The notes beneath the pieces are model-generated. The model was given only the letters and a program-made list of their open reading frames with translations, was not told the origin of the DNA and did not search any database. 64,000 nucleotides of DNA from Pachyseris speciosa (Eukaryota; Cnidaria; Anthozoa; Scleractinia; Pachyseridae). The position numbers were made by a program, and so were the translations under genes. The DNA is taken from assembly GCA_016490735.1 (NCBI GenBank), contig JAEMWC010001018.1, positions 131,001 through 195,000 of the forward strand, in the 5' to 3' direction. Position 1 is the first letter of the stretch; the number at the start of each line of letters is the position of its first letter. Positions 2,058 to 28,300 of the stretch are shown one piece after another.

Positions 2058-3066
2058 CTAAACTAAGATCGCCAGTTTAAAGTACTTTTTTAAAACCTCC
2101 TCCATTGTTGTGTTAATGGAGCTAGTTACCTGAGGTATCGCACGAAGAGGAATTTGAACCTGAATTTGTCTTCGTCGTCGTCGGATGAGTGACACCAGAG
2201 CTCTTCTGAACTCTGGCATCCTGATCGTGTACAAAATAGGATTAACAAGAGAGTTGGCAAAGCACAAACCGTTCAAAGAATTATTCATATGCCTAATTAT
2301 TGATTTTGGAAGGTATGCTGTTACATCGGTTTTGTAATAAAGAAAAGTAATTACAAGAAATTGCAGCCACATTGTTAAAGAGTCCAGAGTCACGATAAAC
2401 AGTGTCTTAGTCATTTTTTTTCTCCCTATTGGCTACACCATGGTGATAGGAAAGCGCTCCGCAATAAAATTTTATTATAATGGAGGTGTAAGACAGAAAA
2501 ACGATAAAAAGGCAAATTAAATTGAACGAGCACCATATGTAAAAGGAGCTTAAACTATTTCCGCATATTAACCCCAAAACAGTTGAATAGAGACCAGCTG
2601 TAACCCAGGTGACCGTAATAACAACTCCAAGGACCCAGTTCTTTATGACACGGTGCTTAAATGGACGAAACGTTGCATGCATACGTTCTAACGAAATCGC
2701 AGTGAGGTTTGTCAAGAAAGCTGCAGGAAACAATTGCTGCATGCTGGACATATCTTTATGCCAGATTTCTTGGGAGGTTAGGTTCCAAACGTTGCACATG
2801 ATATTGTCAATTTGAACCAAATACACAACTTCCGAAAAACCCCCAACTAACATATCTGCAACTGCCAGGTTAATCATTAGGTACATGCTGCGTTTGCGAA
2901 GACTTCGGTTTCTAACAAAAACAATTATTGTCAGAATATTTAATGTTACTATGGCTACAGACTCGGTTATCAACACTGTAAGCCAGGCGATACACTCTGA
3001 TGAAGAAACATAACTGGCGCTGTTGTCACCTTCTGATCCGTTTTTCTGAATAGAATCATCAACCAT
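2058..3066 (-). CDS. Rhodopsin-family (class A) GPCR, single exon, one frame break
   Basis: Seven-transmembrane receptor of the plasma membrane; ligand unknown. The first 219 residues carry TM1-TM5: an N-terminal N-G-S glycosylation site, the TM2 motif NLAVAD, a TM3 end reading SLERMHATFRPF in place of the usual D/ERY, and TM5 followed by a basic loop. The rest lies in another frame and carries TM6, TM7 with NPILYTIRMPEFRRAL (the NPxxY signature) and a basic tail. The frame changes at an 8-base T run (2414-2421), where the two open frames overlap by 8 bp; all seven helices are present if the frames are read together. This is either a recent pseudogene or a base-call indel. SLERMHATFRP is typical of the expanded cnidarian orphan class A receptors. 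The single-exon structure and the flanking duplications fit a tandem or retro-expanded GPCR family. Confidence 0.85.
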
Positions 3067-6750: not shown

Positions 6751-8498
6751 CTAAATGGAGAAACGACTTCTTTTACTTTCGGGTTTTAGAAGTAATGCTT
6801 AAATCCATAATAAATAACAACTTCTTCATATTATATTAACATTAAAACCGAAGTTTAATTTGCAAAATAAATGCGGTTGCACAGCGCATATCTGATAAAA
6901 CAAAACAAAATACGTTCCTTTGTGAATAGGGTCGTCTTTTACGTTTACTCATCCACCAACCTCCTTGAAAAATAAGCCCCAAGACACATTATAAATATAC
7001 ATGTTACAACGCAGACAGCATTTCAAAATTGTCGTTACTCATATCTTTTTAGCCCATTGAATACTACAACGAGAAAACGCTAATAAGAAAGATTTGCGGC
7101 TTTTTAAAGGCGTGGGGTTTGTTTAATATGTTTAAAAATCGATTTCCAAGGCTTTAGTTTTGTACAATTACTGAATGTTTAACATGAATGCCATTTCTTT
7201 GAAGGAAAGTTTACATTATCATGACAGGTTAACCTCAATTTCTGAGGTGGAAGCCGTTCCCGAACAGTTTTTATCAGCAAAAGAAAAAGTTGGGTGCCTC
7301 CGCTATCTCAATTAAACTGGGATGGCATGTTGATGAACCGAGAAACTTTTCATCCAAACAAACCTGCTCAATAATTAATTTCTTGTTAAGGGAATAAAGG
7401 AAAGCTTCTCCAGTTGCAAAGATGTCACTGTCAGCCTGCCTCCGAGAACCTTTTTCCTATTATTTGAACAAGCATAATTTTCAATGTTTGCTTAAGGACA
7501 CACGAAGAAAGAAAGCATTTAACATGAGTTTTCCCAGTTTTGTGTGGCCCACACGGTGTGTGATGATGTTTTTCATAGCCTTTATAGCTTAGCTCTACTG
7601 CTAAAATGTCTTCAGGGGATTCCCCTCTTCTGTAAGATAAGAGGAGAGACTATTTAAATACTCCCCGTATACCTGAGAGTGGCCCTTGTATATTAGACGG
7701 CGTTATTTCCCTGTTAGTACATGTAGGGTTGCATCAGTTTTTATATCATTTCGTGTAGCCTTTGTAAGTTTTTTGTTTGAGGCACTCGAATTCATGACTG
7801 TTCTTCATTCGAGGTCAAGTTTGATCGACTTTTCTGCACCTAACTATGGCTCTGGTGAAATTTTACAGAAGCGCTACCGACGGCCTGTTCAAGTTATTTC
7901 CTTACGGATAGCAGTTATCTCTCCATTGAAATTTTCGCCGAGCGAAATGTTTGCCGAAGCATCCGACCAGCTAAATGGAAAAATAATTTTTTCCTTGACA
8001 CGTGGCATTCCCTCTGAGATGCAAGTGAACACAGATCGTATATATGAAAACCGCAATTATTAAGCCCCTGTTATAGCTCTTCTCAAGAAATTTATAACTG
8101 GGATTTCTTTAAGCCTTCGTTATCACATTTGTTGTGTGTTTTCTATTTTCTTTTTCTCATATAAAACCAGGGACGATATTATAATTAGTCATTTACATTC
8201 GTAGCTGTAGAAGGTTGCAATATAGCAACCGGGAAACTGTAGTTTCAATACTGTAGTTTCAATATATAGATTTAAAACCATGTCACGTCAACATTTCACC
8301 CATTCGATGATGTTTAATTCTCATGATGATTGACGTTTAATTTTGTTAGCTCAAATGACTTACCTGTGTATAACGTCCAAAGCAGTTCCGATTTTCGAAC
8401 GACAACCGTTAAACTTTTAATCAAAAGCAAATCCTACTTTGGCAGGAGATGAGAGTGGAATATAAAGCGGTAACCGACAACTCCAGGAAAAAAAATCA
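6751..8498. other. Host flank left of the Polinton, no gene seen
   Basis: AT-rich sequence without a supportable exon. A 125-codon open frame at 7686-8063 has no recognisable motif and no repeats, so I did not call it. The last six bases before the Polinton, CATGTC at 8499-8504, are its target duplication. Confidence 0.5.
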
Positions 8499-8504
8499 CA
8501 TGTC

Positions 8505-8774
8505 AGTAGTATAGTGTTTGGGGGTACGAAATCAATTGATCTCGTTTTCCCCAAACACTATACTACTGCCTTCTGGTCTCGTATTCTGGAATATATAGTT
8601 ATTTAATTTGATGGAATATATAGTTATTTAATTTGATGGACTCTATAGTTGCTCAATTTGATGGAACCAAGGTCTGCACACTTCATCTATAGTTTATTAT
8701 AATGCGTGACATTCTCGGAAAATCACCAAGCGTGACATTCTCGGAAAACAGGGAATGAGTCATCACCTATAGCT
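8505..8774. repeat. Left terminal inverted repeat of the Polinton (270 bp)
   Basis: Matches the reverse complement of 27953-28300. The order inward is: a 63-bp near-palindrome (8505-8567), a spacer, two full 25-bp units (ggaatatatagttatttaatttga-type) plus a diverged one, a unique block, then two copies of gcgtgacattctcgga. It is shorter than the right repeat mainly because it has fewer 25-bp units. Confidence 0.95.
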
Positions 8775-13583: not shown

Positions 13584-14506
13584 TTAATTTTCTTTTAAAT
13601 CTTTCCTTCGTGATAAGTATAATTTGCTTTCTTCCAAGTGTTTGGTTATTTCATGAATCAAGTCTTCGAAACTATTGCTCATGAGGTATTTGCATTTGTT
13701 TTTCTCATACATTAGCTTCATATCAGACTGTTTGTCTGACACTTTATACACACCTGTTGGGCTTTTAAATTCAAGACAAAGAGCATTGTATTTTCTTGTG
13801 GGATTCATCAGCATTAAATCACATTGTCCAGCCATATATCCTTTCTTATAACTTCTGATTCTAATGTTCGGGCTTATTTGATTTTCACCTAATCCCGCCA
13901 CCATTAATGCGTCTTCATATTTCTTTCTGATGAATGACACAATCTTGTAGTGCAGATCATTTTCACTTTCAATCATCAGCATATTATTGCTTCTGTCATT
14001 GAACTGATTGTAATACCCCTGTTTTCTGATTGATGGCAACACTTTAGATGTAACCCAATGTTTAAATTTTGCTGCTTCCTGTTTTTTAGAGGACAGTATT
14101 AGTGAATAAAATCCTGATTCATTTATAAAAAAACATTTGAAAGTTTTTTCAATGGTCTCAGCACGAGGTAACGTTTGTTACATCGTGAATCAGTGGCCTC
14201 AGCACGAGGGACCGTTTTGTTACATCGTGAATCAGTGGCCTCAGCACGAGGGACCATTTTTGTCCCCCGTGAATCAGTGGCCTCAGCACGAGGTAACGTT
14301 TTGTTACATCGTGAATTTATGCTGATTTTGTGGTCTCTTAAGATTCTATCATCAGATAAAACATGATCCTTGATTGCCTTTTGTGGATTTTTATAGTCGA
14401 GAATAATAGCTATGTCTCTTCCTCTGAACCATATTTCATTTTTATCATCAAGATAGCAATCTATTGATACATCTAATTCTTTATTATCGTAGGAATATTT
14501 TTGCAT
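13584..14506 (-). CDS. BRO-N domain plus PD-(D/E)XK nuclease, one frame break
   Basis: The N-terminal 127 codons carry the first half of a BRO-N fold (EIWFRGRDIAIILDY, then KAIKDHV). They then run through a 42-bp tandem repeat encoding about three and a half copies of a 14-residue unit (RCNKTVPRAEATDS). In the last copy a T3 run (14174-14176), which is T4 in two sibling copies, moves the frame. Past it, the second frame encodes the rest of BRO-N (NESGFYSLIL, then LPSIRKQGYY), followed by a nuclease core (GQCDLML...LEFKSPTG), a VRR-NUC-like D...ExK pattern. The open segment that starts at 14042 has no ATG, which also argues that both parts are one gene. Likely a DNA repair or replication nuclease. 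An early-type promoter block lies 50 nt upstream. Confidence 0.82.
14156..14322. repeat. 42-bp minisatellite inside the BRO-N coding region
   Basis: Four head-to-tail copies begin at 14156, 14197, 14239 and 14281. The first copy on the plus strand (last in the gene) is 41 bp, one base short in a T run. The repeat length is a multiple of three, so expansion keeps the frame except in the short copy. Confidence 0.95.
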
Positions 14507-14656: not shown

Positions 14657-15672
14657 TTATAATATGTCTTTTAAATCCTTGAACGGGATCCAACTGTCAA
14701 ATTCGTCACTGTAACCCTTCCACTTCACCAAAGCTTGTTTCTTCTTGTAATCTCTGCGAATGACTTTATCAATACGGAATACATCCTGTCTGGCTTTCAA
14801 TAATTCAGCTTCATAAAAACTCCCTTGTATTTCTTCATCGTTGAGATCTTTTAGTTTGTAAGTGACTGGATTAGTGTATTGGATCTTATCAACTGTAAAT
14901 ACTTCTTCAGTCCAATTTGGTGTATAGCCCTTGTCGAACACATTCCGTTTATACTTGGATATTCGGACCTTGTCACCTATTTTAAATTTTGGTTTCTGTT
15001 TTAATGTTTTCATATCGCCATACAAATTGAAGTAAACAGTTCCTTCGTTCCTCTTATCAGATGCTTCAACGGGTGTCATCTTTGTGCTTGAATGTTTGGT
15101 ATTATTATACTGTTTCACTAATTTTGGTAACATGTCTAAATACTGTGTATTACCTTGAACAGTGAACTGCTTCCACATTTTGGATTTAATTGTCCTATTC
15201 CATCTTTCAACTACTGATGATTTCTCTTCATTCTCAGTTGAGTACATCTGTACACTATGTTTCTCTAGCAAGTCCTTCAAGTGTTTGTTGTAAAACTCTT
15301 TTCCCTTGTCGACCCATAAATACTGTGGTTTTCTACCTTCCTTGAATATTGATTTGAATGCTTCAGTGACAGATTCACCTTTCTTATCCTTCAATGGGAC
15401 AATCCAACCATATTTGCTGAAGACATCAATAACCATAAGAAGATATCGATAACCTTTATTCCATTTACTGAACTGTTGCATTTCAACTAGATCACTTGCC
15501 CATATTTCATCAATTTTATTTACAATCACACGCCGCCGAGTGAAATTTCGTTTTATGGGTGCATGTAATTCATCAGCTAGTTTTTCTTGCCAGTTTTCTT
15601 CACTCGACGGCTTTTTCCGTTTTTTGAAACACCGAGACCAAGTTTCTGTTTTTTGTCGATTAAGAATCTAGC
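14657..15672 (-). CDS. Retroviral-type integrase with C-terminal chromodomain
   Basis: RNase-H-fold DDE recombinase that should insert the element ends and make the 6-bp duplication. Counting from the GTG at 15529 (290 residues): first Asp in WASDLVEM (D13), second in LWVDKGKEF (D74), Glu in SSVVERWNR (E108), a spacing of 33 residues. An SH3-like/C-terminal region and a chromodomain (ALVKWKGY...DSWIPF) follow. The frame stays open upstream of 15529 to about 15672 and encodes family-like sequence (EKLADELHAPIKR) but no ATG, and it overlaps the 3' end of the PLA2-like gene. The true start is therefore unresolved: non-ATG initiation, reinitiation, a lost ATG or a frameshift from the upstream gene are all possible. 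Confidence 0.93.
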
Positions 15673-16314
15673 TGTTTGACCCCATTTTGGCATCTCACCA
15701 TATGGTATTTGATCTAGTGACTCGACCATTGTTCTATCACAATCGCCTTTATTTTTTCCCATATCATAACAAATATCGTGGTAAGCTGCTATTTCATCCA
15801 CCTTATTGTAAGGTTGTACATTCCATTTCAAGACCTCGCCAGTATTTGGATCATATTCCAACTGCTCATGCAATGGATTGTATGGTCCCATATATTTATA
15901 TTTACTTGGTGTCCAACCTGCTTTTGGTTTAGGAAGCTTGCCAATTACCTTATGGATATCAATCGCGCCTCCCATTTTATTGATTTTAGCTACCCATTTT
16001 TGTATATCTTCTGGTTTTGCATACATGATATCTCCAAGCAATGAGCCACCACGTGTATAATCAACTCCAGCAATATCTGTTTTATACATTTTTTTCTTGT
16101 CAGAGCGTTTGGGTCTAATAGCAGTGCTCAATTGCATTAAGCCTTCTTTACCAACCTTTGTGATTGTAGGCTTTGCGAGGGAAAGTCCTTTGTCAATTAA
16201 TTTCTTTTGCAGCTTTGGATTTCTCATTGCTTCAGAAGCATAATATCTTCCCATTTCTACACCTTTCTTTGCTAAATAAGGGACTCCATGTTCTAAGAAT
16301 CCTGTTAGCGCCAT
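15577..16314 (-). CDS. Parvovirus-type phospholipase A2-like protein
   Basis: 245 residues. The C-terminal half has the PLA2 signature: a glycine-loop-like YMGPYNPL (about 141-148), then VDEIAAYHDICYD (about 173-185) with the catalytic His-Asp pair. The N-terminal half is basic and helical with no known fold. In parvoviruses and Polintons such domains are thought to help virions cross endosomal membranes; here that is inference. The tail is strongly basic (KSRRVKKTGKK). The ATG at 16314 lies 44 nt after the stop of the DUF5679-like gene. Confidence 0.85.
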   Translation of the reverse strand: MALTGFLEHGVPYLAKKGVEMGRYYASEAMRNPKLQKKLIDKGLSLAKPTITKVGKEGLMQLSTAIRPKRSDKKKMYKTDIAGVDYTRGGSLLGDIMYAKPEDIQKWVAKINKMGGAIDIHKVIGKLPKPKAGWTPSKYKYMGPYNPLHEQLEYDPNTGEVLKWNVQPYNKVDEIAAYHDICYDMGKNKGDCDRTMVESLDQIPYGEMPKWGQTARFLIDKKQKLGLGVSKNGKSRRVKKTGKKN

Positions 16315-16358: not shown

Positions 16359-16517
16359 TCAGTTTCCCCGATTTCTGACAAATTTAGTCTTTGTGATTCC
16401 ACATTCAGCACAAGTACATTTCATCACAGTTCGACCATTTTTTGTCTTTTGATATCTTTCACTTCCTGGTACACACTCAGTCTGCTTCTTCTGTTTCACA
16501 CAATATGATTTTACCAT
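16359..16517 (-). CDS. DUF5679-like small zinc-ribbon protein (52 aa)
   Basis: A short reading frame beginning MVKSYCVKQKKQTEC and ending near a CTCAECG knuckle, preceded by NGRTVMK. This matches the DUF5679 pattern of a Cys-containing N-terminus, a conserved N-G-R segment and a C-terminal CxxCG. One expected N-terminal Cys is replaced by Gln. It starts 17 nt after a TCTAA that overlaps the stop of the protease gene. Small basic zinc-ribbon proteins of this type recur in Polintons and other large DNA viruses; the function is unknown. Confidence 0.7.
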   Translation of the reverse strand: MVKSYCVKQKKQTECVPGSERYQKTKNGRTVMKCTCAECGITKTKFVRNRGN

Positions 16518-16534
16518 TATACCATTAAGTTAGA
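16518..16534 (-). promoter_or_regulatory. TCTAA late-type promoter, DUF5679-like gene
   Basis: TCTAA starts 17 nt before the ATG, with TATA directly before the start codon. It overlaps the stop codon of the upstream protease gene. Confidence 0.55.
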
Positions 16535-17855
16535 TATTTTTGAAGTAGTCTATGATGAATCTGTGATTGACTCTTGTGTCTGTTGGATCAAATTCAGCAT
16601 TATGTATTGTATTAAGAATGGATCTGCCTTTTTGTCTCTCAAGAAGATAGTACAAACACCAATATCCACATAATACTGATTCCCTTTCTTGTATCTCATC
16701 ACCAGAGTATTCAAGTTGTTTACCGCTTGCAGCCATGTATTTCTGTACTTCTGTTGGCATCATTAAACCGAAAGAGTCGAAGTATTCACAGTATTTATCA
16801 TTTTTGAAATTCCTATAACAAACCCAATGAGTACCAGGTCCAATTTTGGAATCAAGATTGACTATCCCACATTCATTGTTTCTCATCAGGTTCGGCAGAT
16901 TGTCTCTTGAAAATACTCCTCTAAAATGTTTTATTCCAAGTTGTTTAACCCAATTGATTAAATCAAAGTTGGATAAGGGTTTATTTACAAAATGGTTCCT
17001 AGTATGGGGATTGAATTGAATGGACTGTTTTTGCCTAGTAGAAGTCCTTTTCCTTTGGTTTTTCTTTTTTTTTTTCATTCCCATGCCTATTGGGTTATCC
17101 CATGTACCAAAAACAGGAGGGGATTGCCATGGAATCATAGCATGTTTCCCACCACTTTTATTTTTTGCAATGGAATCTGGAACATGAACTGGTAATGACC
17201 GTCTTGGACGGCTGCTTTCAACATGCAAACCTTTTCCAGTTAATTTTCTAATTGCTTCTATGGCTAAAGGAATACCAATGCTTGCAAGAATTGACGCAAT
17301 CCCCCGTCCAGTCTGCGCTTTTGTGGGTCTGATAACAACATCACCACCAGACTGCAATTTGCTCATTATCTGTGATAGCTGTCCTTTTGTGAGCAAGTTA
17401 CCTAAGCTCAGTAATTGAGGCAGATTATTATTAGGAATCATAAAACCACCTTTTTGTCCACTTCCTTTCTTGCTGCCAAATAATTTGTCAATACCAAGAC
17501 TGCCAAGTTGACTTATTGCACCTGTAGCCAACGCTGGGATAGCTTTTGATGCAGCTCTGGCAGCATAAGGCAGAAGTTTAGTTCCAAGTGAAAAAAGACT
17601 GGACCAAAGAGAGCCTCCTTCTTGGACTGATTTTCTGATCTGTGCTTTGGATATCTTTACATCAGCACCTGTTCCATTTCTCTGTGCTTTGGCTAATTTT
17701 TTTATCTGTGTTTTTGTCAACATCATTTGATCACCTCCAGTGAGATCTCCAACTCTAAGTCTCAATGTTACCGGTGAATTTGTTTGTATAGCTTTTGCAA
17801 GCATTTCCTTCTGACTTCCTGAAAGTCTTACTCCATGAGGATGATAAGTAGTCAT
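16530..17855 (-). CDS. Structural precursor fused to adenain-like cysteine protease
   Basis: 441 residues in one frame. The N-terminal 270 or so are typical of a Polinton virion-precursor protein: a basic helical start, LTKTQIKKLAKA, small Gly/Ala-rich hydrophobic segments (about 82-120 and 180-205) and repeated double-glycine sites (LTGG, QEGG, QKGG, QSGG). The C-terminal part is the adenovirus-type maturation protease: His343 (GTHWVCY), Asp360 (YFDSFG), a likely oxyanion Gln near 387 and nucleophile Cys396 (VLCGYWCLYYL). Protease and substrate-like region are joined by a lysine-rich linker with a K5 run. The enzyme would process capsid precursors at Gly-Gly-type sites. The fusion may be genuine, or it may join two genes. 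No TCTAA motif is seen upstream. Confidence 0.88.
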   Translation of the reverse strand: MTTYHPHGVRLSGSQKEMLAKAIQTNSPVTLRLRVGDLTGGDQMMLTKTQIKKLAKAQRNGTGADVKISKAQIRKSVQEGGSLWSSLFSLGTKLLPYAARAASKAIPALATGAISQLGSLGIDKLFGSKKGSGQKGGFMIPNNNLPQLLSLGNLLTKGQLSQIMSKLQSGGDVVIRPTKAQTGRGIASILASIGIPLAIEAIRKLTGKGLHVESSRPRRSLPVHVPDSIAKNKSGGKHAMIPWQSPPVFGTWDNPIGMGMKKKKKNQRKRTSTRQKQSIQFNPHTRNHFVNKPLSNFDLINWVKQLGIKHFRGVFSRDNLPNLMRNNECGIVNLDSKIGPGTHWVCYRNFKNDKYCEYFDSFGLMMPTEVQKYMAASGKQLEYSGDEIQERESVLCGYWCLYYLLERQKGRSILNTIHNAEFDPTDTRVNHRFIIDYFKNI

Positions 17856-17922
17856 ATAATATATGTTTATACTAAATTGTATTTAATATAAAACAATCAT
17901 TTAATTTATTTAATTATTTAAT

Positions 17923-19210
17923 TTACATTGATCTCAGAATTAATTTTCCATCAGTCTTTCTCATCTCAATATCCTGCTCATAGAGGACCAGTGCATACAC
18001 ACTGTAATCAGCATTTGTTGCAGCACTCAAAGTGTATTTGAAAGTCAGTTTTGTCATTCCATCTTTGATATCCTGTTTCTGTTTTGTCAGATCGAAATAA
18101 ACAAAAGGGAATATTGTACCGAAATTGCCCCTGTTGAGAAGGGTACTTTCACTGAAATCGTTTACAGCTTGAACATATTTCAAAACATCTCTAAATACTC
18201 TTGTTGGTTCTGTTGATGGTTTATAACGAAGCTCTGGATAATCATTTCCGTTGCCAACCTCAAGATAACAATCAGTCAAAGTTCGGTTATTTGCAACTGA
18301 GAATGTGTTGTACAAGAATTTATTGGCTGTCTGAGATGCATCACTTGCATCATTGATGATGAATACAAAGACATGTCTGGGTTTGTTTATTGCTGTGGAA
18401 ATACGGAAATTGGCAGTCTGTTGTCTTGTTGAATTGCCTCTCTCAACCAGTTCTCTCATGTAAGTCCACTTTCTGTTGTCAAGATACTTGCTCATGTATA
18501 AGGACTTTCCCGTAGAATTGAAAATAATACGAGGAACTATTAGCTGGAATTTAGTTAGTACCACACGGCAATCATCAGCAGCTTGCCAAATCAAATTGGC
18601 ATCACTCTCAAGTGTCAATTTCACCTCTACTTTTGAGTTAGGCATTAGTTCATCCCAAAAGCTCTTGAAAAAACCGTATCTGTTCAATGCTATCTCTGCA
18701 TTTACTTCACCATTTGCACCATTCAACAGTGCTTTGCGAGCTGCGAAACCTTTGTTATAAGTAGCCACCTGGGCAACTCTATCATCAGCTTGTTTTTGTC
18801 GTCAAGATAGAAGAACTCATTGGTTCCCTGACTTACAGCATAACCCTGTGAATACTCAAGCAATGACTTAATATTTGTGGCTTGGTTGGCATCTCGGCAC
18901 TCATAAACATCAAGACCATTCATTTTTACATTAATGGTGTTAATAAGAGCGTGAACTGAATTAACGATACCATTTCGATCTCCTGCAGCAATGTCAGCTC
19001 CATCTGCAAGCTTCTTTACAATGAAAATAACATTGAAACGGGCATTATACCAGTCAAATGGTGTAGTCTCTCCACTGTTGTCAACAACGAAACGGTAACC
19101 TGTTTTCTCTGATGATCACCATTTGCTACTACAGTATTAAGTGCTGTCTCTAGTTCGAACACTACATCTTCATATCTTTCGATATGTTTTGAGTCACGAT
19201 AGTTTGACAT
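17923..19210 (-). CDS. Major capsid protein (double jelly-roll), two frame breaks
   Basis: About 430 codons in three frames. The start (MSNYRDSKHIERYEDV) follows TCTAA by 16 nt. The frame changes at a short T run at 19103-19106 and again at about 18793-18797; sequence similar to Polinton capsids continues across both. The C-terminal 281 residues carry the most recognisable part (RGNFGTIFPFVYFDL and TNADYSVYALVLYEQD). This would be the hexon-forming double jelly-roll protein of the virion. It sits downstream of the minor capsid and AT-hook genes in one leftward cluster. Both breaks are single-base shifts next to A/T runs, with no in-frame stop substitutions inside the segments. Confidence 0.88.
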
Positions 19211-19226
19211 ATATTATTGTGTTAGA
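19211..19226 (-). promoter_or_regulatory. TCTAA late-type promoter, major capsid
   Basis: TCTAACACAAT... begins exactly 16 nt before the capsid ATG and ends in TAT directly before it. Confidence 0.6.
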
Positions 19227-19232
19227 TAAAAG

Positions 19233-19463
19233 TTATTTTATTTTACGTGGTCGACCTCTCTTTCTTTTGATTAAACCACCAGTCTGGCTCACACTCTCAG
19301 TTCCACTCTTTCTCTTTTTCAAAAGTTCTATGATTTTGTCGCCAGCTTTTTTGCCAGCATGTTCACCAATTGTTGTTGCTGCTTTTTTTCCAGCTGTTTT
19401 GATCATATCAGTCACAATACCTTCACCATGTTGTTCATATTTTTTAAACTCAAACCGTTTCAT
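19233..19463 (-). CDS. Small basic AT-hook virion-type protein (76 aa)
   Basis: Lys-rich helical N-terminus, a Gly/Ala-rich middle and a C-terminal AT-hook (KRKRGRPRK) just after a QTGG double-glycine that could be a protease site. The position between minor and major capsid genes and the composition fit a DNA-condensing core protein cleaved by the element's protease. The function is inferred only. A shortened CCTAATAGTAT precedes the ATG. Confidence 0.7.
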   Translation of the reverse strand: MKRFEFKKYEQHGEGIVTDMIKTAGKKAATTIGEHAGKKAGDKIIELLKKRKSGTESVSQTGGLIKRKRGRPRKIK

Positions 19464-19476
19464 ATACTATTAGGTT

Positions 19477-20262
19477 TTATAATTCTGTCTCTCTCAAGAA
19501 TAACTCAATATACCAATCTATCCCATTCAAATCGACTGGAGCTCCAGAAGAGTCTGTGACATAAAAGCGTATTGAGCTGATATTATGTGTTGAGACTGGA
19601 TTCCATGAAAGAAAACGAGGTTTGTAAGTGAAAGGTAAACTTCTAACGAGATCTGTGACAGGAATAACAGCGATTGTATTTGTGCTATTTCCATCAACAA
19701 TGCTATCTGTCACCAAATCACAATTGATATAAATTTCATCTACTCCTCTTGTAATATCAGGTAGATTTGTTCCATATTCTGTGGCTGGAACTAATTTTGA
19801 ATCGAAACCGATAAGTTTTCTGAAATCAAGATTTCTCAGATCCACTCTATAGTTTTCATCAAGTTCAATCAAAATGCGATATGTTGACAAAACGAAATAC
19901 ATGTTAATACCATACAGGAATTTTGATTTGTCTGTTTCAGATGGATTCAGTACATGGTTATTTTTTCTCATATACTCATGAATGTAACTATTGATATCGT
20001 CGTATGAATACATCCCGTTAACGAATGTTATTGTTTCCCAGTTTACACCTTTGTCATAGCTGTATTTCATTTGATTATTCCCAAAAATATCTCTGATATT
20101 GTACCAACTGTATGTCATATTGATGACATTCACAGCCATTTCATATTTTAAATCATTCGTTAATTTAAGAGGTGAATTGAATCTTTTTTCAAAATCATGA
20201 CTCTTGCTGACACCAATTTTGTCTCTGTTTTTACTGTTGAATCGTAATGAAATTTCTGTCAT
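19477..20262 (-). CDS. Minor capsid protein (penton-like, single jelly-roll)
   Basis: 261 residues, intact. It starts MTEISLRFNSKNRD and is beta-rich throughout, with NMTYSWYNI near residue 50 and a C-terminal beta-strand pair (IRFYVTDSSG, then WYIELFLRE). Sequence and place next to the major capsid match Polinton minor capsid proteins, which form the five-fold vertex base. The fibres encoded to the right would be expected to dock on it. Start supported by TCTAA 16 nt upstream. Confidence 0.85.
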   Translation of the reverse strand: MTEISLRFNSKNRDKIGVSKSHDFEKRFNSPLKLTNDLKYEMAVNVINMTYSWYNIRDIFGNNQMKYSYDKGVNWETITFVNGMYSYDDINSYIHEYMRKNNHVLNPSETDKSKFLYGINMYFVLSTYRILIELDENYRVDLRNLDFRKLIGFDSKLVPATEYGTNLPDITRGVDEIYINCDLVTDSIVDGNSTNTIAVIPVTDLVRSLPFTYKPRFLSWNPVSTHNISSIRFYVTDSSGAPVDLNGIDWYIELFLRETEL

Positions 20263-20278
20263 ATACTTTTACATTAGA
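20263..20278 (-). promoter_or_regulatory. TCTAA late-type promoter, minor capsid
   Basis: TCTAATGTAAAAGTAT lies directly before the ATG, with TCTAA at exactly 16 nt. It overlaps the end of the preceding gene. Confidence 0.6.
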
Positions 20279-20568
20279 TATTTCATCATTATTTTATTTA
20301 GCTCACCGGTTTTCAGGATTCCCAGTCTGTTCAATGTATGCAATATTTTTGTGAATTCATTTTGAACATTTCTGCTGTTGTTGCCGGCTGAAATAGATCC
20401 ACCAAGTAACTGTAGTCTTGAAAGCATGTCACCCAAAAATGCATCCCTTGAACCCATTCCTTTCCCTGTTTTGTATTTGTAAGAAGCTAATACATCTGAA
20501 ATCGTTTCTCTGTATTTCTTCAAAGTTTGTATTTCTCTGTCAAAAGATTCTCTATCTTCTGCACTCAT
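20269..20568 (-). CDS. Unknown helical protein (99 aa)
   Basis: Charged helical N-terminus, a QLLGGS double-glycine at about 53-58 and a helical C-terminus. No family recognised. Its ATG overlaps the TGA of the upstream gene (ATGA), so the pair is probably translated from one transcript. Its place before the penton gene suggests a virion or assembly role. Confidence 0.65.
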   Translation of the reverse strand: MSAEDRESFDREIQTLKKYRETISDVLASYKYKTGKGMGSRDAFLGDMLSRLQLLGGSISAGNNSRNVQNEFTKILHTLNRLGILKTGELNKIMMKYLM

Positions 20569-21074
20569 TGATTTTTTTTTCTTCTTCCCATATCCTTGGC
20601 TATTTCTGAAGATTTTTTCTTTTCTTCAAGAAGTTTTTGTGGGGTGATTTGAGTTAATTCGGATGGTTTCAAAAGATTGTGATTTCTTAATATGATTCTA
20701 TCATCTCTATCGAAATTGTTATCGATCGCTAATATGTTGTGTGTCCAATCCTCTTCTTCAGGTGCTTCAATGGCTCCAGGAAGTTCCATACCCATTGTAA
20801 TTGCTCTGCGATTAGCTTCAATAACATCATCAAGTCCTTGTGTTAAGGCTTTTTGATTTTTTTTCAACTGTTTAATGACTTCATCCTGTTTTTCGTCGAC
20901 ACTTTCTTTCACACTCTTCTGGACATCAATAGAGGGTTTCAGCAATTCTGATGTTGTATCATATGCATCCTGTTTTCTGTATTCATAAGTCTTGATAACA
21001 TCACGAACTTCTCTTGTTTTGTTTCCAGCTTCAATTCCACTTTTAAGAAGCCTTTTCATTCGTTCTATATCCAT
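20565..21074 (-). CDS. Unknown coiled-coil protein (169 aa)
   Basis: I chose the ATG at 21074 (MDIERMKRLLKSG) rather than a TTG two codons earlier because TCTAA lies exactly 16 nt before it. Long charged helices at about 30-100 suggest a coiled coil, then an acidic patch (PEEEDW), then a lysine-rich end (MGRRKKNQ). It is the first gene of the leftward structural cluster, divergent from the ATPase. No family recognised; a scaffold or core protein is a guess. Confidence 0.65.
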   Translation of the reverse strand: MDIERMKRLLKSGIEAGNKTREVRDVIKTYEYRKQDAYDTTSELLKPSIDVQKSVKESVDEKQDEVIKQLKKNQKALTQGLDDVIEANRRAITMGMELPGAIEAPEEEDWTHNILAIDNNFDRDDRIILRNHNLLKPSELTQITPQKLLEEKKKSSEIAKDMGRRKKNQ

Positions 21075-21110
21075 ATACAATTGTGTTAGACTAATCTAAA
21101 CTATTTACAT
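21075..21110. promoter_or_regulatory. Bidirectional TCTAA promoter between structural cluster and ATPase
   Basis: Leftward TCTAA (plus-strand TTAGA at 21086-21090) is 16 nt from the ATG at 21074. Rightward TCTAA (21095-21099) is 16 nt from the ATPase ATG at 21111. The two cores are only 4 bp apart (TTAGA-CTAA-TCTAA). Confidence 0.65.
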
Positions 21111-21749
21111 ATGGAAATCCCTAATTATGATATTCAGGGTTTAAAGAATTCATTCAGACAGTTGTATCCGTATATGCCAAAAGATACATTTAGAATGTTA
21201 TTGGCTGGTAATTCTGGATCTGGAAAGACAACATTGTTCATGCATCTGATTATGGAACCATTGGTTTATTATGATCAGATACATCTTTATGCAAAAAATT
21301 TGGATCAAGACAAGTATCAATATCTTCGGAAAGTAATGGAATGAAATAAGCAGTCACATTGGATATCCTGCCTTGGTTTGCAGTCAAGAAGAGATATTGC
21401 CAGTTGAACAAATAAAAGACACAGATTTGCAGCGATTGGTTGTTTTTGATGATTTTGTGACTGATAAAAAACAAGATCAAATCATAAGCTATTTCATTCA
21501 GGGAGACACAAGAACTGTTCAGTCATATATCTCACACAATCATTCTATGGCTGTCCAAAATCAATCAGATTGAATTGCAGTCACTTCTGCCTTTATGATT
21601 TCCCATCCTCAAGAGAAAGGAACTTGATTGCACAAGAACTTGGAATCGACAAGAAGAAATACATTGAAGCAACCAAAAAACCATATTCCTTCTGTTATGT
21701 TGACAAGCCGATGAAAACAATCAAGAGAAATTTTTATGGTGCTGTTTAA
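21111..21749 (+). CDS. A32-like genome-packaging ATPase (FtsK/HerA type), two frame breaks
   Basis: P-loop motor that would pump the genome into capsids. The first 77 codons carry Walker A (LLAGNSGSGKTTL). After a single-base shift at about 21342, which creates a TGA, the next frame carries Walker B (RLVVFDDFV). A second shift at about 21503-21507 leads into the last segment, which is rich in family-like sequence (CLYDFPSSRERNL) and ends at TAA 21747-21749. About 213 residues in total, the usual size for Polinton ATPases. Both breaks are single-base; one adds and one lacks a base relative to the continuing frame. Confidence 0.9.
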
Positions 21750-21765
21750 TCTAATCTAATATTAT
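21750..21765 (+). promoter_or_regulatory. TCTAATCTAA late-type promoter
   Basis: A doubled TCTAA directly after the ATPase stop; the first copy is 16 nt before the ATG at 21766. Confidence 0.55.
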
Positions 21766-21840
21766 ATGGCAATCAATAATTTCCAAAATGTTGAAAAACA
21801 GGAGAATCCAAAAACAGAAAGAATCGAAAAATTAATCTAA
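21766..21840 (+). CDS. Micro-ORF (24 aa) with its own TCTAA promoter
   Basis: It encodes MAINNFQNVEKQ followed by a charged tail. It is very short, but it begins with ATGG in a TATTAT context, is preceded by TCTAA at 16 nt and ends in the TCTAA that precedes the fibre gene. It could be a real peptide or a truncated remnant of a third MGVFN-type gene start. Confidence 0.4.
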   Translation: MAINNFQNVEKQENPKTERIEKLI

Positions 21841-21852
21841 CAAGATTGTATA
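21836..21852 (+). promoter_or_regulatory. TCTAA late-type promoter, fibre 1
   Basis: TCTAACAAGATTGTATA, 17 nt, ends directly before the fibre ATG. Confidence 0.55.
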
Positions 21853-24800
21853 ATGGGAGTTTTTAATTCTCCACAAGATCAAGATAAAACTGAAACTGGT
21901 GAAAGAGGCCCAGCTGGTCCAATTGGTCCCAAAGGTGAAAAAGGTGATAGAGGTGATAGAGGTCCAAAAGGTAATACAGGTGCAATTGGTCCACAAGGAG
22001 CTACTGGAGCTGTTGGTCCCAAAGGTGATGGATTTAGATTAACACAAGATGGTAATTATGACATTGAAAATAAACGTTTGACAGATGTTGGTGATCCAGT
22101 AAATCATTATGATTCTGCTAACTTGGGATATGTTAATGATGCTGTTTTATCAATTGAAGGAACACGTGTTAATCCATTCAAATTTCTTCTTGAAGATACA
22201 TCAAAAACAACTATTCTTAGAAATGCGAATAATCTGCAATTGGAAGATTTTGACAAAAGCCCTTACTCATTTAATAAAATAGCCTTGTCTTTTGTTATTC
22301 CTACTGCTGGTCTTACAACTGTTCTTCGTTTTGATCTGACACAATTGGAAGTTTCAAAGTACACTTTAGTTGTTGAGTTTTATACTGATGGTAGCCCAAA
22401 TAATGCAACAGTCGATGACGACAATCTGTCATCTAATTTAATTGAAAGAAAGGATTCAATAAAAAGAGCATTTCCAAAGACTCATCTTGTTGATGGTTAT
22501 CTCAAAAGAATATTCTTCCTTGAAAAAACAAGTCATGGTTCCACATCAATGGAGTTATTGTTGATTTCACCATATTTACAAAATAATAAAAAACATTATG
22601 TTATAGTTTATGGTGTTTATGGATTTTCTAATATCATTTTATCACATATTCACGACCCAGCTTTTGTAATAGAAGAAGGAAGAATTGTATTTGATCGTGA
22701 GCTTAAAATGAGTTTTCGTAGAATAGTCAATGTTGCATACCCTATATTAAAACAAGACTGTGCAAATAAAAAATACGTTGATGATGCTGCCATATATCTG
22801 ACGAATAATAAAGCGAATATAGCATATGTTAATTCTAACTTTGTGAAAAAAGATGGAAGCGTTGCAATGACTTCTGATTTGAATCTTGGAGGTAACAAAT
22901 TGACTAATGTAGCAGCGCCAACAGCAAACAATGATACAGCTACAAAGGGGTATGTTGATACTGAAATTGCTGGAATTACTGGCATTGATGTTTCACCATT
23001 TCTTAAAAAAGATGAAAGTGTTGCAATGACTGGTGATCTTGACATGGGTGACAATAAAATAACAAATGTTGAGACTCCAAACTCTGATAAAGATTCTGCC
23101 AACAAAAAGTATGTTGATGACCTTGTTTTTTCAGCATCAGGAGCTCAACGCAACCCATTCGCTTTTCTGTTAAAAGACAAATCCAAGTCTTCTGTAGTTA
23201 GTGATGCAACAAACCTTCAAATTGAGAATTTTGACAGATCACCTTATCACATAAACAAGTCGTCATTGTCTTTTTTCATCAAACGAAGAGGCAACTTTAC
23301 ATCCAAAATTCGTTTTAATGTTTCATCTTTGAGAAACAGTCAGTACACTTTTGTTGTTGAGTTTTACTCACCATCAGACCCACACCAAGCTACAATTGGG
23401 CTCGATCTTCGCACATTGAACATACGTGATGTCGGACAGCCATTTCAAAAACCTTTTCTCAAAACCCCATATGTTGATGGTTATATGAAGAAGCTTTTCC
23501 GAATCGAAAAAACTGGTGGCGGTCAAGCGTTAATTGAGGTTTTACTTTCCAGCACAGCTCCTGCGTCTAACACCAAAACACATATCATCGTTTATGGGGC
23601 CTATGGCTATCATACCAATTTGTCTTACTTTGTTCATGACCCAGCTTATGAAATTGAAAACGGCCATGTTGCGTTTGGCAGTAATGTTGACATGAAATTA
23701 AACAAAATCCTCAACCTGCAGGATAACCCCTCAAACCCACAAGACGCTGTAAACAAAAGTTATGTGGACCAGAGGTTGCAAACCAAACTCGATACGGTTG
23801 CACAACAAAATCTAAATATGAACAACAATGCCATTACTGATCTTGCTCCACCCGTCAACGCAGACGATGCGGCGACAAAACGTTATACTGACGAATATTT
23901 TCTCCGACGAGACGGTTCGACTGCAATGTATGGCGATTTGTCGATTGGTGGAAATAGAGTGACTAATTTAGCGGACGTGGTGAATGAAACTGATGCAGTG
24001 AACTTTAGAGTTTTAAATCGAGCTTCACAAACTATCAGAGCAAACACTTTATTATTGAATGGAACAAATGCGATGGCAGCGGATATGAAACTTGGAGGGC
24101 ATAAAATCATTGACTTAAAAGAAGGAACAAATAAAACCGATGCCGTAAATTTAGATCAATTAGAAAAAAGTCATATTTCATCTGCTTCTCATCCAAAGAA
24201 TGCTTTCAAATATTTGATGAATGATATCGATGAAATTAGCACTGAATATGGCTTGACAGTTAATGGATATGTCAATTTACCTCGTTCACCACATTTGATT
24301 TCAAAAAAGGTCATTGATATAGACTTGAATAAAAAGCTAATCATATTTACAGAGCTAAAATTGGTTTTAATATGTACACAATAAAAGATGGAAAATACAC
24401 TTTCATTCTTGAATGGCTATTTCCTGATTATGAAGGAATGAGTCTTAGTAGTGTAACATTCAGTGCAAATGGTGGAATTACATTCATAAAACTGTAGGGA
24501 GAAAATTTGATAACAGAAATGAAGATCATTCGAGATATTTATTATGGATTGAAAAACCATCAGCAAGTTCACCACCTGAATATTTATATTGTACGATTCA
24601 TATTAATGCTAACCCAACTTATCCAAATAAGTACAAAGTTCATTGTGTTGCATATGGTATTGATTTCGAAGCTGCAGACGTTCCATCAAGTGTTTACGAC
24701 TTCTCTGAACCTTTCAAAATCGTGAATGAAACAATACAATTACAAACTGATTTAGATTTGAATGGTTTTGATGTGAAAGAAAATGAAAATTGGTTGTTTG

Positions 24801-25410
24801 GTGGAGACAATGGCGAATTGACAATGCTGAATAATATTAATATGAACACTTATCTGATAAAAGAGGCCAAACTTGGTGGTGATTTAAATCTGAATGGCTA
24901 TAGAATTCATAATAATAGTTTGAATCTATTTCGTTCAAGCGTTACAGGTGTAATCATGGAAACGGCTTTCGATTTGGGTGGATTTGCTCTTTACAGGCCG
25001 AAATTAGGAGGTGATCTAAATTTGAATGGGAATGGAATAATCGGTCAAATACAATATTTAAATTGCTTTGTCAAAGCCAAACAAGGACATAATAAGAATG
25101 CTTTAAAGCCTGTATTGATAAATGGCTCTGAATTTTTAGTTATTCACAACAATAACTTTCATATAAGAATATGTATGTAATACAAGGAACAAAACCCGGA
25201 ATATTCTACTTCAAGACAAAAGCTGAAGGTGCTGGAAATTTGCCATTACCAGCAACAATTTTTGAATACAGACATGGTGCTACGGGTAGAAACATCACAA
25301 CGGTTGACGTCAATAAATCATTATCGAGAGGCTCTTTAATCATTGATTATTCACATCCCAATAGTGGAGAATTTGATACAGCATTCACACTTGAAGTAAT
25401 TATGAATTAA
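21853..25410 (+). CDS. Large collagen-stalk fibre protein, three frame breaks
   Basis: Begins MGVFNSPQ, then Gly-X-Y collagen repeats (about residues 16-58). The body alternates tail-fibre-like repeats (for example SVAMTSDLNLGGNKLTNV followed by ATKGYVD) with two to three copies of a globular module of about 150 residues that starts NPFKFLL/NPFAFLL. The first 843 codons are open. After about 24331-24335 (an A5 run) the third module continues in another frame, shifts again near 24480-24487 and a third time near 25166, and the last frame ends at TAA 25408-25410. The whole would be about 1,185 codons. Likely a trimeric receptor-binding fibre at the capsid vertices; the head segment is the broken part. 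Confidence 0.8.
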
Positions 25411-25426
25411 TCTAAAATAATATTAT
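25411..25426 (+). promoter_or_regulatory. TCTAA late-type promoter, fibre 2
   Basis: TCTAAAATAATATTAT, exactly 16 nt, directly before the ATG and directly after the fibre 1 stop. Confidence 0.6.
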
Positions 25427-26437
25427 ATGGGAGTTTTTAATTCTCCACAAAATCAAGATAATAAAGGTGATAAAGGCGATACTGGTGCAATTGGTCCTAA
25501 AGGTGATAATGGAAATGGTTTTACATTAACACAAGATGGTCACTATGATCTTGGAAACAAACATTTGACTAATGTAAAAGCAGGCAATGATTCTGATCAT
25601 GTTGTAATCAAATCACAAGTTTCAGATATTGTCAGAGATAGTTTTTTGGATTTGTGGGTTTCTGAATTCATCAGATTATACTCTAAATGTACTTATCAAA
25701 TCGACAGAGCGAATAATAATTTTCTAGATATGAATGCAGACAGAAAAGTTGAAACATTGTACGATCTCTCGAATGAAGAAAATAATGCAACGCAACCGAC
25801 TTTGAACATAAGACCCACTGTTTGTACCAAGGCTGAGAAACATAATGGACGTTATTATTTAGACTTTAATGGATCACAGAGAATGATAAGTCAAATCAAT
25901 TTGAATAATGATGTTGTTAATGTCTTCATTGTTTATAAATTAAATTCAAATACAGGTGGAAGTCCATGGAAAAATGGTCTTTTTGGTCATGATAATAGAG
26001 GTTATGATAAGTTTGTCAGCTATTACAATGGTTCAAATTTAGTTATAAGTGGTGTTGATCAATCAAATTGTGTATATTTTGGTTCAGCAGCATCTATACA
26101 AAGTTTCAGAAAAATAGCAGATTATTCAGTAAATGATTTGGGTCAAATAAATGTTTGGCACTGCTTGTCTGTTCACTGGGATAATTTATCTTCTCCAAAA
26201 ACAAACACAAGTAAAATCTATTGGAATAAAAAACATATTGGAAGTTTTACAGCGGCTAACAGAAGTGGTAGTCGGCAAATGACTTTTGGTGATTTGGATC
26301 CTAGCTCCATCGCACCTCTTGACGGTAGTGTTATTTTTTTCTGTGTGTACTTGGATTCTATATTAGACGAAAAAACAATTTCAGATCATCATCAAATTTT
26401 AATCCAACGATATAATATAAATGAACAAAATAATTAG
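25427..26437 (+). CDS. Short collagen-stalk fibre with LamG/ConA-like head
   Basis: 336 residues, intact. The N-terminus MGVFNSPQNQD matches fibre 1, as does the block after a short collagen stretch (about 12-32): TLTQDGHYDLGNKHLTNV against the matching fibre 1 segment. The remainder is a single globular beta-rich domain with features of a concanavalin/laminin-G lectin fold (YYLDFNGSQRM, VNVFIVYKLN, WHCLSVHWDN). Probably an alternative receptor-binding head on the same anchor. Its last 17 bases overlap the next gene. Confidence 0.78.
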   Translation: MGVFNSPQNQDNKGDKGDTGAIGPKGDNGNGFTLTQDGHYDLGNKHLTNVKAGNDSDHVVIKSQVSDIVRDSFLDLWVSEFIRLYSKCTYQIDRANNNFLDMNADRKVETLYDLSNEENNATQPTLNIRPTVCTKAEKHNGRYYLDFNGSQRMISQINLNNDVVNVFIVYKLNSNTGGSPWKNGLFGHDNRGYDKFVSYYNGSNLVISGVDQSNCVYFGSAASIQSFRKIADYSVNDLGQINVWHCLSVHWDNLSSPKTNTSKIYWNKKHIGSFTAANRSGSRQMTFGDLDPSSIAPLDGSVIFFCVYLDSILDEKTISDHHQILIQRYNINEQNN

Positions 26438-26849: not shown

Positions 26850-27335
26850 ATGAAAGACAGAAAGAGCATATTCAACTGGAACCATATTTCAGGTGAATTA
26901 ACAGAAGATCAGGTAAATGAATTAAAAGCCTATTACCACACATATCACAGAAAGTGTTGGGCTCATAAACAGGCTGTTAAACGGTTCAAAAAATGGAAAT
27001 TACTGGGGAATTCCTTGTCCATCATCTTTGCAACTGGGGGTCTCGCCACAAGTGTGGCAACAGGTGGTGTTAGTTTGGTAGCCATCAGTACAGCAGCACT
27101 TTTGATACAAGGGTGGATGAAGCATAAAAACCTAGATTTGAAAATCCAGAATTGCACATATGCTTATCAAAGCTATCAACATCTACTCAATTCAATAAAA
27201 GACAAGTTGAGAAGTGGTGATTTTGATGCTTCAAGTATACAAATCTCAATGAAGAATATCGATGATTATGTGACTGACAATAGTCCAATTATTGATAAGT
27301 ACCTACTGAAATATGATGAAAAATTCACTGCTTGA
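26850..27335 (+). CDS. Two-transmembrane glycine-rich hairpin protein (161 aa)
   Basis: A charged N-terminus (about 1-50), then a continuous apolar Gly/Ala/Thr hairpin at about 51-88 with a central TGGxATSVATGG turn, then a soluble helical C-terminus. It resembles small viral membrane proteins (holin-like, SLATT-like or fusion-like topology) only in layout; no family is claimed. It ends 11 bp inside the convergent VLTF3-like gene. Confidence 0.6.
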   Translation: MKDRKSIFNWNHISGELTEDQVNELKAYYHTYHRKCWAHKQAVKRFKKWKLLGNSLSIIFATGGLATSVATGGVSLVAISTAALLIQGWMKHKNLDLKIQNCTYAYQSYQHLLNSIKDKLRSGDFDASSIQISMKNIDDYVTDNSPIIDKYLLKYDEKFTA

Positions 27336-27888
27336 TAATACTAATAATCTTATCAAATCTCAACAATAGAATCTCAACCCAATATCGATCATAAAATCCA
27401 AGCGTCTTTTTTGATCTAGTAACTATTATTTTATCAAATGGAAGATCAAGCATTAAAAATATTTGCTTAAGCATAAATTTCGTACTTATCATCCTTTTAC
27501 GATTCTTATTCACCAAAGGAAGGACAGTGTCTATCTCTTGGAATATTTTCAATATTTTGCCTTTATCTTTTACAGAAATTTGAAGTCCATTCTTACAACA
27601 TATACCATTTATCACATTTTCAATATGGTACTTCCGATGATATACAGATTTTCGCCGTATTTTATACATATTATTATGAAAGTCAACGTACTCTTTACAA
27701 TAGTCATAGCTGTGGACTGAACCGCAATTTAGACAAACATTTTCACCATCATCGTTAAACATTTTCTGATTATCACAGCAAGGTGCTTTCACACTTTTAA
27801 CAACTTTGACCAATAGCTGATCACAAAAATAACATGACAATTCTCCCATATTCTTTAATTCATTGTGGATTACTGAATTACAACTCAT
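27325..27888 (-). CDS. VLTF3-like late transcription factor
   Basis: 187 residues. The N-terminus has a zinc ribbon of the TFIIB/VLTF3 kind (CYFC...CC...VCLNCGSVHSYDYC). It is followed by the Y-x-R-K-x-x-H element (YHRKYHIENVI) and a helical C-terminal domain with RMISTKFMLKQI and an aromatic end (GFYDRYW), as in poxvirus VLTF3 and its giant-virus relatives. It would act as a late-gene transcription factor in infected cells. It is the only leftward gene at the right end and is separated from the TIR by a short palindrome and an E-box. Assignment is from motif order and composition, not from a search. Confidence 0.6.
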   Translation of the reverse strand: MSCNSVIHNELKNMGELSCYFCDQLLVKVVKSVKAPCCDNQKMFNDDGENVCLNCGSVHSYDYCKEYVDFHNNMYKIRRKSVYHRKYHIENVINGICCKNGLQISVKDKGKILKIFQEIDTVLPLVNKNRKRMISTKFMLKQIFLMLDLPFDKIIVTRSKKTLGFYDRYWVEILLLRFDKIISIIKQ

Positions 27889-27952: not shown

Positions 27953-28300
27953 AGCTATAGGCGATGACTCATTTCCTGTTTTTCCGAGAATGTCACGCTT
28001 GGTGATTTTTTCCGAGAATGTCACGCATTATAATAAACTATAGATAAAGTGTGCAGACCTTGGTTCCATCAGATTGAGCAACTATAGATTCCATCAAATT
28101 AAATAACTATATATTCCATCAAATTAAATAACTATATATTCCATCAAATTAAATAACTATATATTCCATCAAATTAAATAACTATATATTCCATCAAATT
28201 AAATAACTATATATTCCAGAATACGAGACCAGAAGGCAGTAGTATAGTGTTTGGGGAAAACGAGATCAATTGATTTCGTACCCCCAAACACTATACTACT
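27953..28300. repeat. Right terminal inverted repeat of the Polinton (348 bp)
   Basis: Inverted copy of 8505-8774, with five full 25-bp units (about 28090-28214) against two at the left. The outermost 63 bp (28238-28300) repeat the terminal near-palindrome. Confidence 0.95.

Follow-up and report, generated by a model that had tools for sequence, protein, structure and literature searches.

A TCTAA-N8-TAT signal before virion genes of a coral Polinton, and a VLTF3-like gene of the same element as its candidate reader

The Polinton element and the TCTAA motif at its gene starts

The window analysed here is a stretch of 64,000 nucleotides from the genome of the coral Pachyseris speciosa (assembly GCA_016490735.1, contig JAEMWC010001018.1, positions 131,001 to 195,000 of the forward strand), and the coordinates given below are those of this window. 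It contains an element with Polinton/Maverick hallmarks, namely terminal inverted repeats and an rve integrase scoring over the profile cut-off. The left terminal inverted repeat region (8482-8755) has arms that are 92-98% complementary to the right terminal inverted repeat region (27973-28300), in which short internal repeats are found. Eight genes of the element are preceded by TCTAA, almost always in the arrangement TCTAA-N8-TAT directly before the ATG, and a gene for a VLTF3-like late transcription factor of 187 aa, the candidate reader of this motif, is located just inside the right terminal repeat (27325-27888, minus strand). The eight-site pattern is real and not due to chance, and it is likely that it marks promoters.

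On the minus strand, the motif precedes the genes of a DUF5679-like small protein (16362-16517, motif at 16519-16534; PF18930 match with E 1.5e-4 and 22.2 bits, below the cut-off of 27), the major capsid protein (17923-19210, motif at 19211-19226; PF21738 match in the 3' part with E 1.6e-4 and 21.5 bits, below the cut-off of 27, the profile reaching up to 34.4 bits in other copies of the genome), the penton or minor capsid protein of 261 aa (19477-20262, motif at 20263-20278; 417 homologues, no Pfam match) and a 169-aa protein, p169, also without a Pfam match (20565-21074, motif at 21075-21090). On the plus strand, it precedes the genes of the packaging ATPase (21111-21749, motif at 21095-21110; a Walker A-like GNSGSGKT is seen in the translation), a 24-aa micro-ORF (open reading frame; 21766-21840, with TCTAATCTAATATTAT at 21750-21765), its stop codon being contained in the next TCTAA, fibre 1 (21853-24384, motif at 21836-21851), having collagen-like, T7-tail-fibre-like and YadA-stalk-like stretches, and fibre 2 (25427-26437, motif at 25411-25426), which has the same N-terminal MGVFNSPQ as fibre 1 and no Pfam match. 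The names of the penton and the ATPase are those of the original prediction. In four other copies of the element, the motif after the ATPase gene directly precedes a fibre gene.

The original prediction placed TCTAA 16 nt before the ATG of six genes (ATGs at 19210, 20262, 21074, 21111, 21766 and 25427) and 17 nt before the ATG of two (16517 and 21853), and re-reading of the sequence confirms all eight positions. The positions are exact, but the constancy, which had been described as a fixed distance to the ATG, is in fact found within TCTAA-N8-TAT. As also described before, the sequence in front of the ATG usually ends in TAT: this is seen in seven of the eight sites, each being TCTAA-N8-TAT, and the ATPase site is TCTAA-N8-CAT. 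Both sites at 17 nt have one additional A between TAT and ATG, which shows that the fixed distance is internal to the DNA signal; the spacing is a property of this signal, and the ATG is located at its edge. In the whole window, TCTAA-N8-TAT occurs 10 times when 3.5 occurrences are expected (1 of 100 shuffles gave at least 10), all 10 being within the element and seven being followed by an ATG 0-2 nt later. None of the TCTAA and TAT pairs of the window with a gap of 4-7 or 9-13 nt precedes an ATG. When considering 85 loci fetched from the same genome, among them near-identical copies as well as that of the window itself (L001), the construct with an ATG 0 or 1 nt later is found 150 times with a gap of 8 nt, twice with a gap of 6 nt and once with a gap of 7 nt. 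The ATGs of the divergent p169 and ATPase genes are 36 bp apart, and the gap between them contains two motifs back to back, one for each gene; with both located there, the leaders are, if these are promoters, necessarily very short. A splice-acceptor reading was set aside, as there is no AG between TCTAA and ATG in six of the eight sites.

For the counts, 21 gene starts of the element were chosen by us from ORFs and homology, starts of broken genes included. TCTAA is found at -16 or -17 in 8 of these 21, and at exactly -16 in 6 (8 of 23 if two starts without the motif are counted as well, at 24824 and at 18645, the latter being internal to the broken capsid gene). Dinucleotide shuffling of the 40-nt upstream sequences (20,000 shuffles) gave no such site in 18,144 cases, one in 1,797, two in 57 and three in 2, the maximum of three comparing with the observed eight. 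When the highest count of any 5-mer, in whichever 2-nt position window, is taken, the maximum in 3,000 shuffles is 6, reached nine times, versus 8 for TCTAA. Of the 855 ATGs in the element, TCTAA at -16 or -17 is seen at 10, eight of them belonging to the genes listed above; for the window outside the element, the corresponding count, obtained by subtraction, is 4 of 1,598. TCTAA itself is rarer than expected in the window (135 occurrences versus 185.7).

TCTAA at -16 or -17 is absent from the genes of the rve integrase with chromodomain (14657-15481, minus strand; PF00665, 34.7 bits with a cut-off of 32.6), the BRO-like protein, the VLTF3-like protein and a putative family-B DNA polymerase. 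The BRO-N domain (14123-14506; PF02498, 41.1 bits, over the cut-off) is followed by a short internal repeat, RAEATDSR... This polymerase would be represented by two broken ORFs without a Pfam match at E 1e-3, which we take to be PolB, and a DTDS motif is seen by eye. Other genes are those of a PLA2-like domain protein (15577-16314; PF08398, 31.9 bits, over the cut-off), a protease, presumably, as judged from sequence features (16530-17855, minus strand; no Pfam match), and a small basic protein (19250-19463, minus strand). PLA2-like domains also occur in parvovirus capsids. Upstream of the protease gene (17856-17871, minus strand), TATAA is found at -16, and the basic-protein gene of the window has no TCTAA at -16. 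Pfam scans of 18 proteins of the window revealed no recognisable RNA polymerase gene; not among the 18 are the ATPase, a 97-aa ORF at 11374, a 118-aa ORF at 24824 and the initial portion of the capsid protein. The short internal repeats of the terminal repeats (8505-8666 and 28008-28300) give several overlapping inverted pairs. Beside the element, at 2058-3066, two ORFs together resemble, by eye, a broken rhodopsin-type G-protein-coupled receptor.

Retention and turnover of the motif in other copies

Copies of the element were searched for in the 984-Mb assembly (2,368 contigs). The penton search gave at least 146 scored places among 3,776 candidates, which are 97-100% identical and therefore carry little information on constraint; the capsid profile search gave 122 matches, which are more varied than the penton set. 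With this number of penton places, the Polinton load of the genome is very high. At one place (G000:C12:2533005-2535479), two penton genes are on opposite strands with their first bases 1.7 kb apart, which suggests nested or inverted copies.

The per-gene counts of TCTAA at -15 to -17 include the window's own copy and many near-identical loci, and they are made on loci where the protein match starts no later than residue 12 and an ATG is present within 30 nt; the number of distinct 22-nt upstream sequences is therefore given as well. TCTAA is kept before the major capsid gene in 56 of 60 loci (8 of 11 distinct upstream sequences), the penton gene in 36 of 38 (8 of 10), the p169 gene in 32 of 34 (3 of 5), the ATPase gene in 34 of 35 (6 of 7) and the DUF5679-like gene in 5 of 6 (3 of 4). 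The corresponding counts are 2 of 59 loci (2 of 11 distinct upstream sequences) for the basic-protein gene, 3 of 29 (1 of 7) for the protease gene, 0 of 4 for the VLTF3-like gene and 0 of 9 for the SLATT-like gene next to it. The idea that the motif marks the virion gene set is borne out by the major capsid, penton, p169, ATPase and fibre genes; the protease and basic-protein genes of the window copy do not fit it.

In the 14 distinct 26-nt upstream sequences of the major capsid gene (from 59 loci), exact TCTAA is present in 11, and TCTAG, TGTAA and TCTGA are found in the others. The TCTAA columns are conserved at 93-100%, and positions -26 to -24 at 43-64%. Positions -23, -20 to -17, -11, -9, -8 and -3 to -1 are conserved as much as TCTAA, from which it follows that the constrained block is wider than five letters.

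The motif also varies between copies at orthologous places. At the protease gene, TCTAA is found at -16 in L034, L035 and L038, in contrast to TATAA in the window family; at the basic-protein gene, it is present at -16 in L034 and L035 and absent in the other 57 loci counted; and at the p169 gene of L064, TATAA replaces TCTAA. Five diverged loci cover the start of a fibre gene, and TCTAA is at -16 in four of them (L061, L062, L064 and L065) and missing in L063. The fibre genes concerned differ from each other: when the fibre N-terminus of the window is compared by tblastn, L062 and L065 match at 52-55%, and L061 and L064 do not match. In the most distant penton gene that could be read (L082, 44% identical), TCTAA is at -12, in a decayed copy. 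A TCTAA at -14 before an ORF of L082, near a basic-protein-like stretch, was not counted as belonging to the basic-protein gene because the ORF and this stretch are in different frames, and the stretches beside L082 (L084 and L085) have no recognisable capsid or p169 gene. Judged from the sequences, this turnover looks like that of a functional site which is gained and lost, over few independent lineages. No relative outside this genome was found in penton, major capsid and VLTF3 scans of viral contigs, nor in penton scans of other genome contigs and phage records; homologous proteins from other sources exist, known without their upstream DNA.

The VLTF3-like gene and its neighbourhood

The VLTF3-like gene, which had been overlooked in the original prediction, is the main addition made here, since it provides the late-promoter idea with a candidate trans-acting factor. 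Its product matches Pfam VLTF3 (PF04947) at 24.8 bits (E 2e-5), which falls 0.2 short of the cut-off of 25, and the A2L zinc-ribbon model weakly (E 0.018, 15.1 bits, below the cut-off of 22.9). When 27 relatives are aligned, 26 of them match VLTF3 at E <= 1, the best with E 2.5e-10, and the N-terminal zinc-ribbon cysteines C19, C22, C37, C52 and C55 are invariant in all 27 sequences. Homologues number 527, and PF04947 is annotated on about 75 of the 120 matches listed (hand count). In a fold search with the predicted model, 12 of the first 24 rows are named late transcription factor, none at E <= 1e-3, and the best viral match is M4QPM5 of Tetraselmis viridis virus S1 (E 1.3e-3, probability 1.00). 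Going by this model, the protein could combine the zinc-ribbon cysteines with a TFIIB-like helical C-terminal (cyclin) domain. In the PDB, a sequence search for relatives had no match with an E value lower than 0.16, and the NCBIfam scan had no VLTF3 match; in the alignment-based family scan, the absence of other families carries no meaning.

In the same genome, VLTF3 is found at E <= 0.001 in at least 84 places (84 of 150 scored, from 1,355 candidates at first look), all over the cut-off and not including the window's own copy; none of 14 control genomes has a match at this threshold. At least eight of the 84 places are within 20 kb of one of the 146 penton places, where 0.5 would be expected from an even scatter. 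All eight pairs are on the same strand, and in seven of them VLTF3 is 6.5-7.4 kb upstream of the penton gene, as in the window (7.1 kb). At least five further VLTF3 places are near capsid or penton places, in a comparison with 13 of the 146 penton places.

The gene adjoins, in convergent orientation, the gene of a SLATT-like protein (p161; 26850-27335, plus strand; PF18181, E 2.6e-4, below the cut-off). A full-length VLTF3-like gene beside a SLATT-like gene is also present in L067 (82% identical) and L068 (79%), with a terminal-repeat match after the VLTF3-like gene found in L067 and none in L068; L069 has a partial match (43%), and L066, which has a long masked run, gave none. Among the window, L067 and L068, the dN/dS values of the VLTF3-like gene (Nei-Gojobori) are 0.41, 0.16 and 0.19. 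The loci L070-L076 have VLTF3 genes or pieces with stronger Pfam matches (79 bits for L070), and SLATT-like matches are found in L070-L073 and L076; the SLATT-like gene beside VLTF3 in L071 encodes a protein that is 35% identical to p161 of the window (E 2e-28). The presence of the pair, again convergent, in this second, very diverged family makes the neighbourhood look old in these elements. By eye, pieces of an ATPase-like and a fibre-like protein are encoded near L070, and no TCTAA is seen at the few starts covered in L070-L076, where virion genes are barely covered. In prokaryotes, SLATT domains are known to occur in defence contexts.

Directly before the ATG of the VLTF3-like gene, a conserved TATCTCA(T/A)ATAATARTATAG is found in L067, L068, L077 and L079. 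This upstream sequence is similar, but not identical, to TCTAA-N8-TAT, and it could be the signal of another gene class. A VLTF3-like gene lacking TCTAA and having this other type of upstream sequence is what would be expected if the factor is made before the late genes.

Proposed mechanism, rival explanations and known systems

The geometry of the motif, its retention in diverged copies, its presence before differing fibre genes and the back-to-back p169/ATPase pair support well the claim of the original prediction that it is a promoter-like element. The late character of this promoter, as judged from the gene content, and its virophage-like character are plausible. It is proposed, with moderate confidence, that the virion genes of the Polinton use TCTAA-N8-TAT as late core promoter and that this promoter is switched on by the VLTF3-like factor of the element itself. 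The motif would be an initiator-like core promoter of the late, virion-building gene class, and transcription would begin at or just after it, giving leaders of about 0-15 nt. The VLTF3-like protein would be a reduced TFIIB-like factor, having a zinc ribbon and one TFIIB-like cyclin domain, and would recruit an RNA polymerase to TCTAA. Because no RNA polymerase subunit was recognised in the element proteins scanned, the host RNA polymerase II (Pol II) would be the simplest partner, a helper giant virus being the main alternative source of the polymerase. The set of motif-bearing genes has its caveats: 13 of the 21 starts are without the motif, including those of the protease, the PLA2-domain protein, the basic protein and p99, which may be virion genes too; the window copy has disrupted reading frames in its major capsid and ATPase genes; and the product of the micro-ORF has just 24 aa.

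It is also conceivable, though unlikely, that TCTAA is a TATA-like variant which is read by host Pol II and host factors alone, the VLTF3-like gene having another task, as TATAA is indeed found at -16 in orthologous places (at the protease gene in the window family and at the p169 gene in L064). However, a canonical TATA box is about 30 nt upstream of the transcription start, which would then fall inside the coding sequence, and TATA boxes do not typically have a sharp N8 spacing to TAT or a restriction to one gene class. Somewhat less probable still is that the element depends on a helper in the manner of a virophage, its TCTAA late promoter being read by the late machinery of a co-infecting CroV-type giant virus. 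CroV, ChlorV and type 4 EMALEs are reported to have a late motif identical to the core TCTA, but the motif is longer here and the element has its own VLTF3-like factor, whereas mavirus, to our knowledge, is not known to encode one.

An action of TCTAA at the RNA level, in translation, for example by stop-start coupling of neighbouring genes, could be considered because its TAA is the stop codon of the preceding gene in two of the eight cases (16517 and 21853). This is very improbable, as p169 and ATPase diverge from a gap that has no gene upstream within it, and both have the motif. That the pattern arose by chance in AT-rich DNA and was multiplied by the copying of one ancestral element is hardly credible: AT-richness upstream of the genes and the near-identity of most copies would favour this, but the dinucleotide shuffles, the control with all 5-mers, the exclusive N8 spacing before the ATG and the presence in diverged copies all speak against it.

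With the shared motif and the resident candidate factor, the timing of Polinton capsid genes becomes a testable two-part system, in which the element is suggested to bring part of its own late-gene switch. More generally, and only tentatively, the Polinton late switch could be self-contained and homologous to that of poxviruses and giant viruses, consisting of a minimal TFIIB-like VLTF3 factor, a TCTAA-N8-TAT initiator and the host polymerase. On this view VLTF3 would be an ancient part that Polintons, Polinton-like viruses and giant viruses have in common, and the isolated VLTF3 genes reported in the sea anemone E. pallida could belong to Polintons.

The closest resemblance in the motif is to the TCTA systems of giant viruses and virophages. 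In the parts of the sources considered, the TCTA late motif of CroV is described for 124 genes (PMC5294985), the TCTA motif is common to mavirus and type 4 EMALEs and missing in other EMALE types (PMC8547959), ChlorV also has it (PMC13196603), and mavirus is a Polinton relative with an rve integrase (PMC8547959, PMC5294985, PMC13196603). The likeness, as far as motifs can be compared by their descriptions, is a TCTA core in AT-rich sequence upstream of genes, and such a core just upstream of the start codon is present in the element of the window. Unlike CroV and mavirus, this element has TCTAA-N8-TAT at a fixed spacing and a VLTF3-like gene, and no helper was seen, none having been sought. 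In the open-access literature searched, PMC8547959 is the only source found to join Polinton, promoter and TCTA, and among the papers listed no report of a Polinton late promoter was recognised from titles and abstracts, nor one of a VLTF3 gene in animal Polintons from titles, abstracts and passages.

The protein resembles the VLTF3 of poxviruses and giant viruses (PF04947, vaccinia A2L) in its profile match close to the cut-off, its N-terminal cysteines and its predicted helical C-terminal domain; it differs in being short and in being encoded by a Polinton in which no RNA polymerase gene was recognised. According to the part of PMC11253617 considered, VLTF3 homologues are not detectable outside Nucleocytoviricota. 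Passages of PMC11244446 report VLTF3, capsid genes and a family-B polymerase in adintovirus-like regions of the protist Amoebidium, so that VLTF3 in such elements is not wholly new; those elements differ in the protist host and in having a Dam methyltransferase too, and the term "promoter motif" does not occur in the text of that source as available. Tetraselmis viridis virus S1, a Polinton-like virus, is alike through M4QPM5, its uncharacterised protein, and differs in being an algal virus that forms virions; the main text of PMC4642659 has no mention of VLTF or a promoter. Isolated VLTF3 copies are reported, in the part of PMC5294986 considered, for the metazoan E. pallida, and we suggest that these may be Polinton genes. 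A giant virus is not necessarily the source of a lone VLTF3 match in the genome of a eukaryote, and a VLTF3 homologue in Polintons bears on the question whether giant viruses had Polinton-like ancestors.

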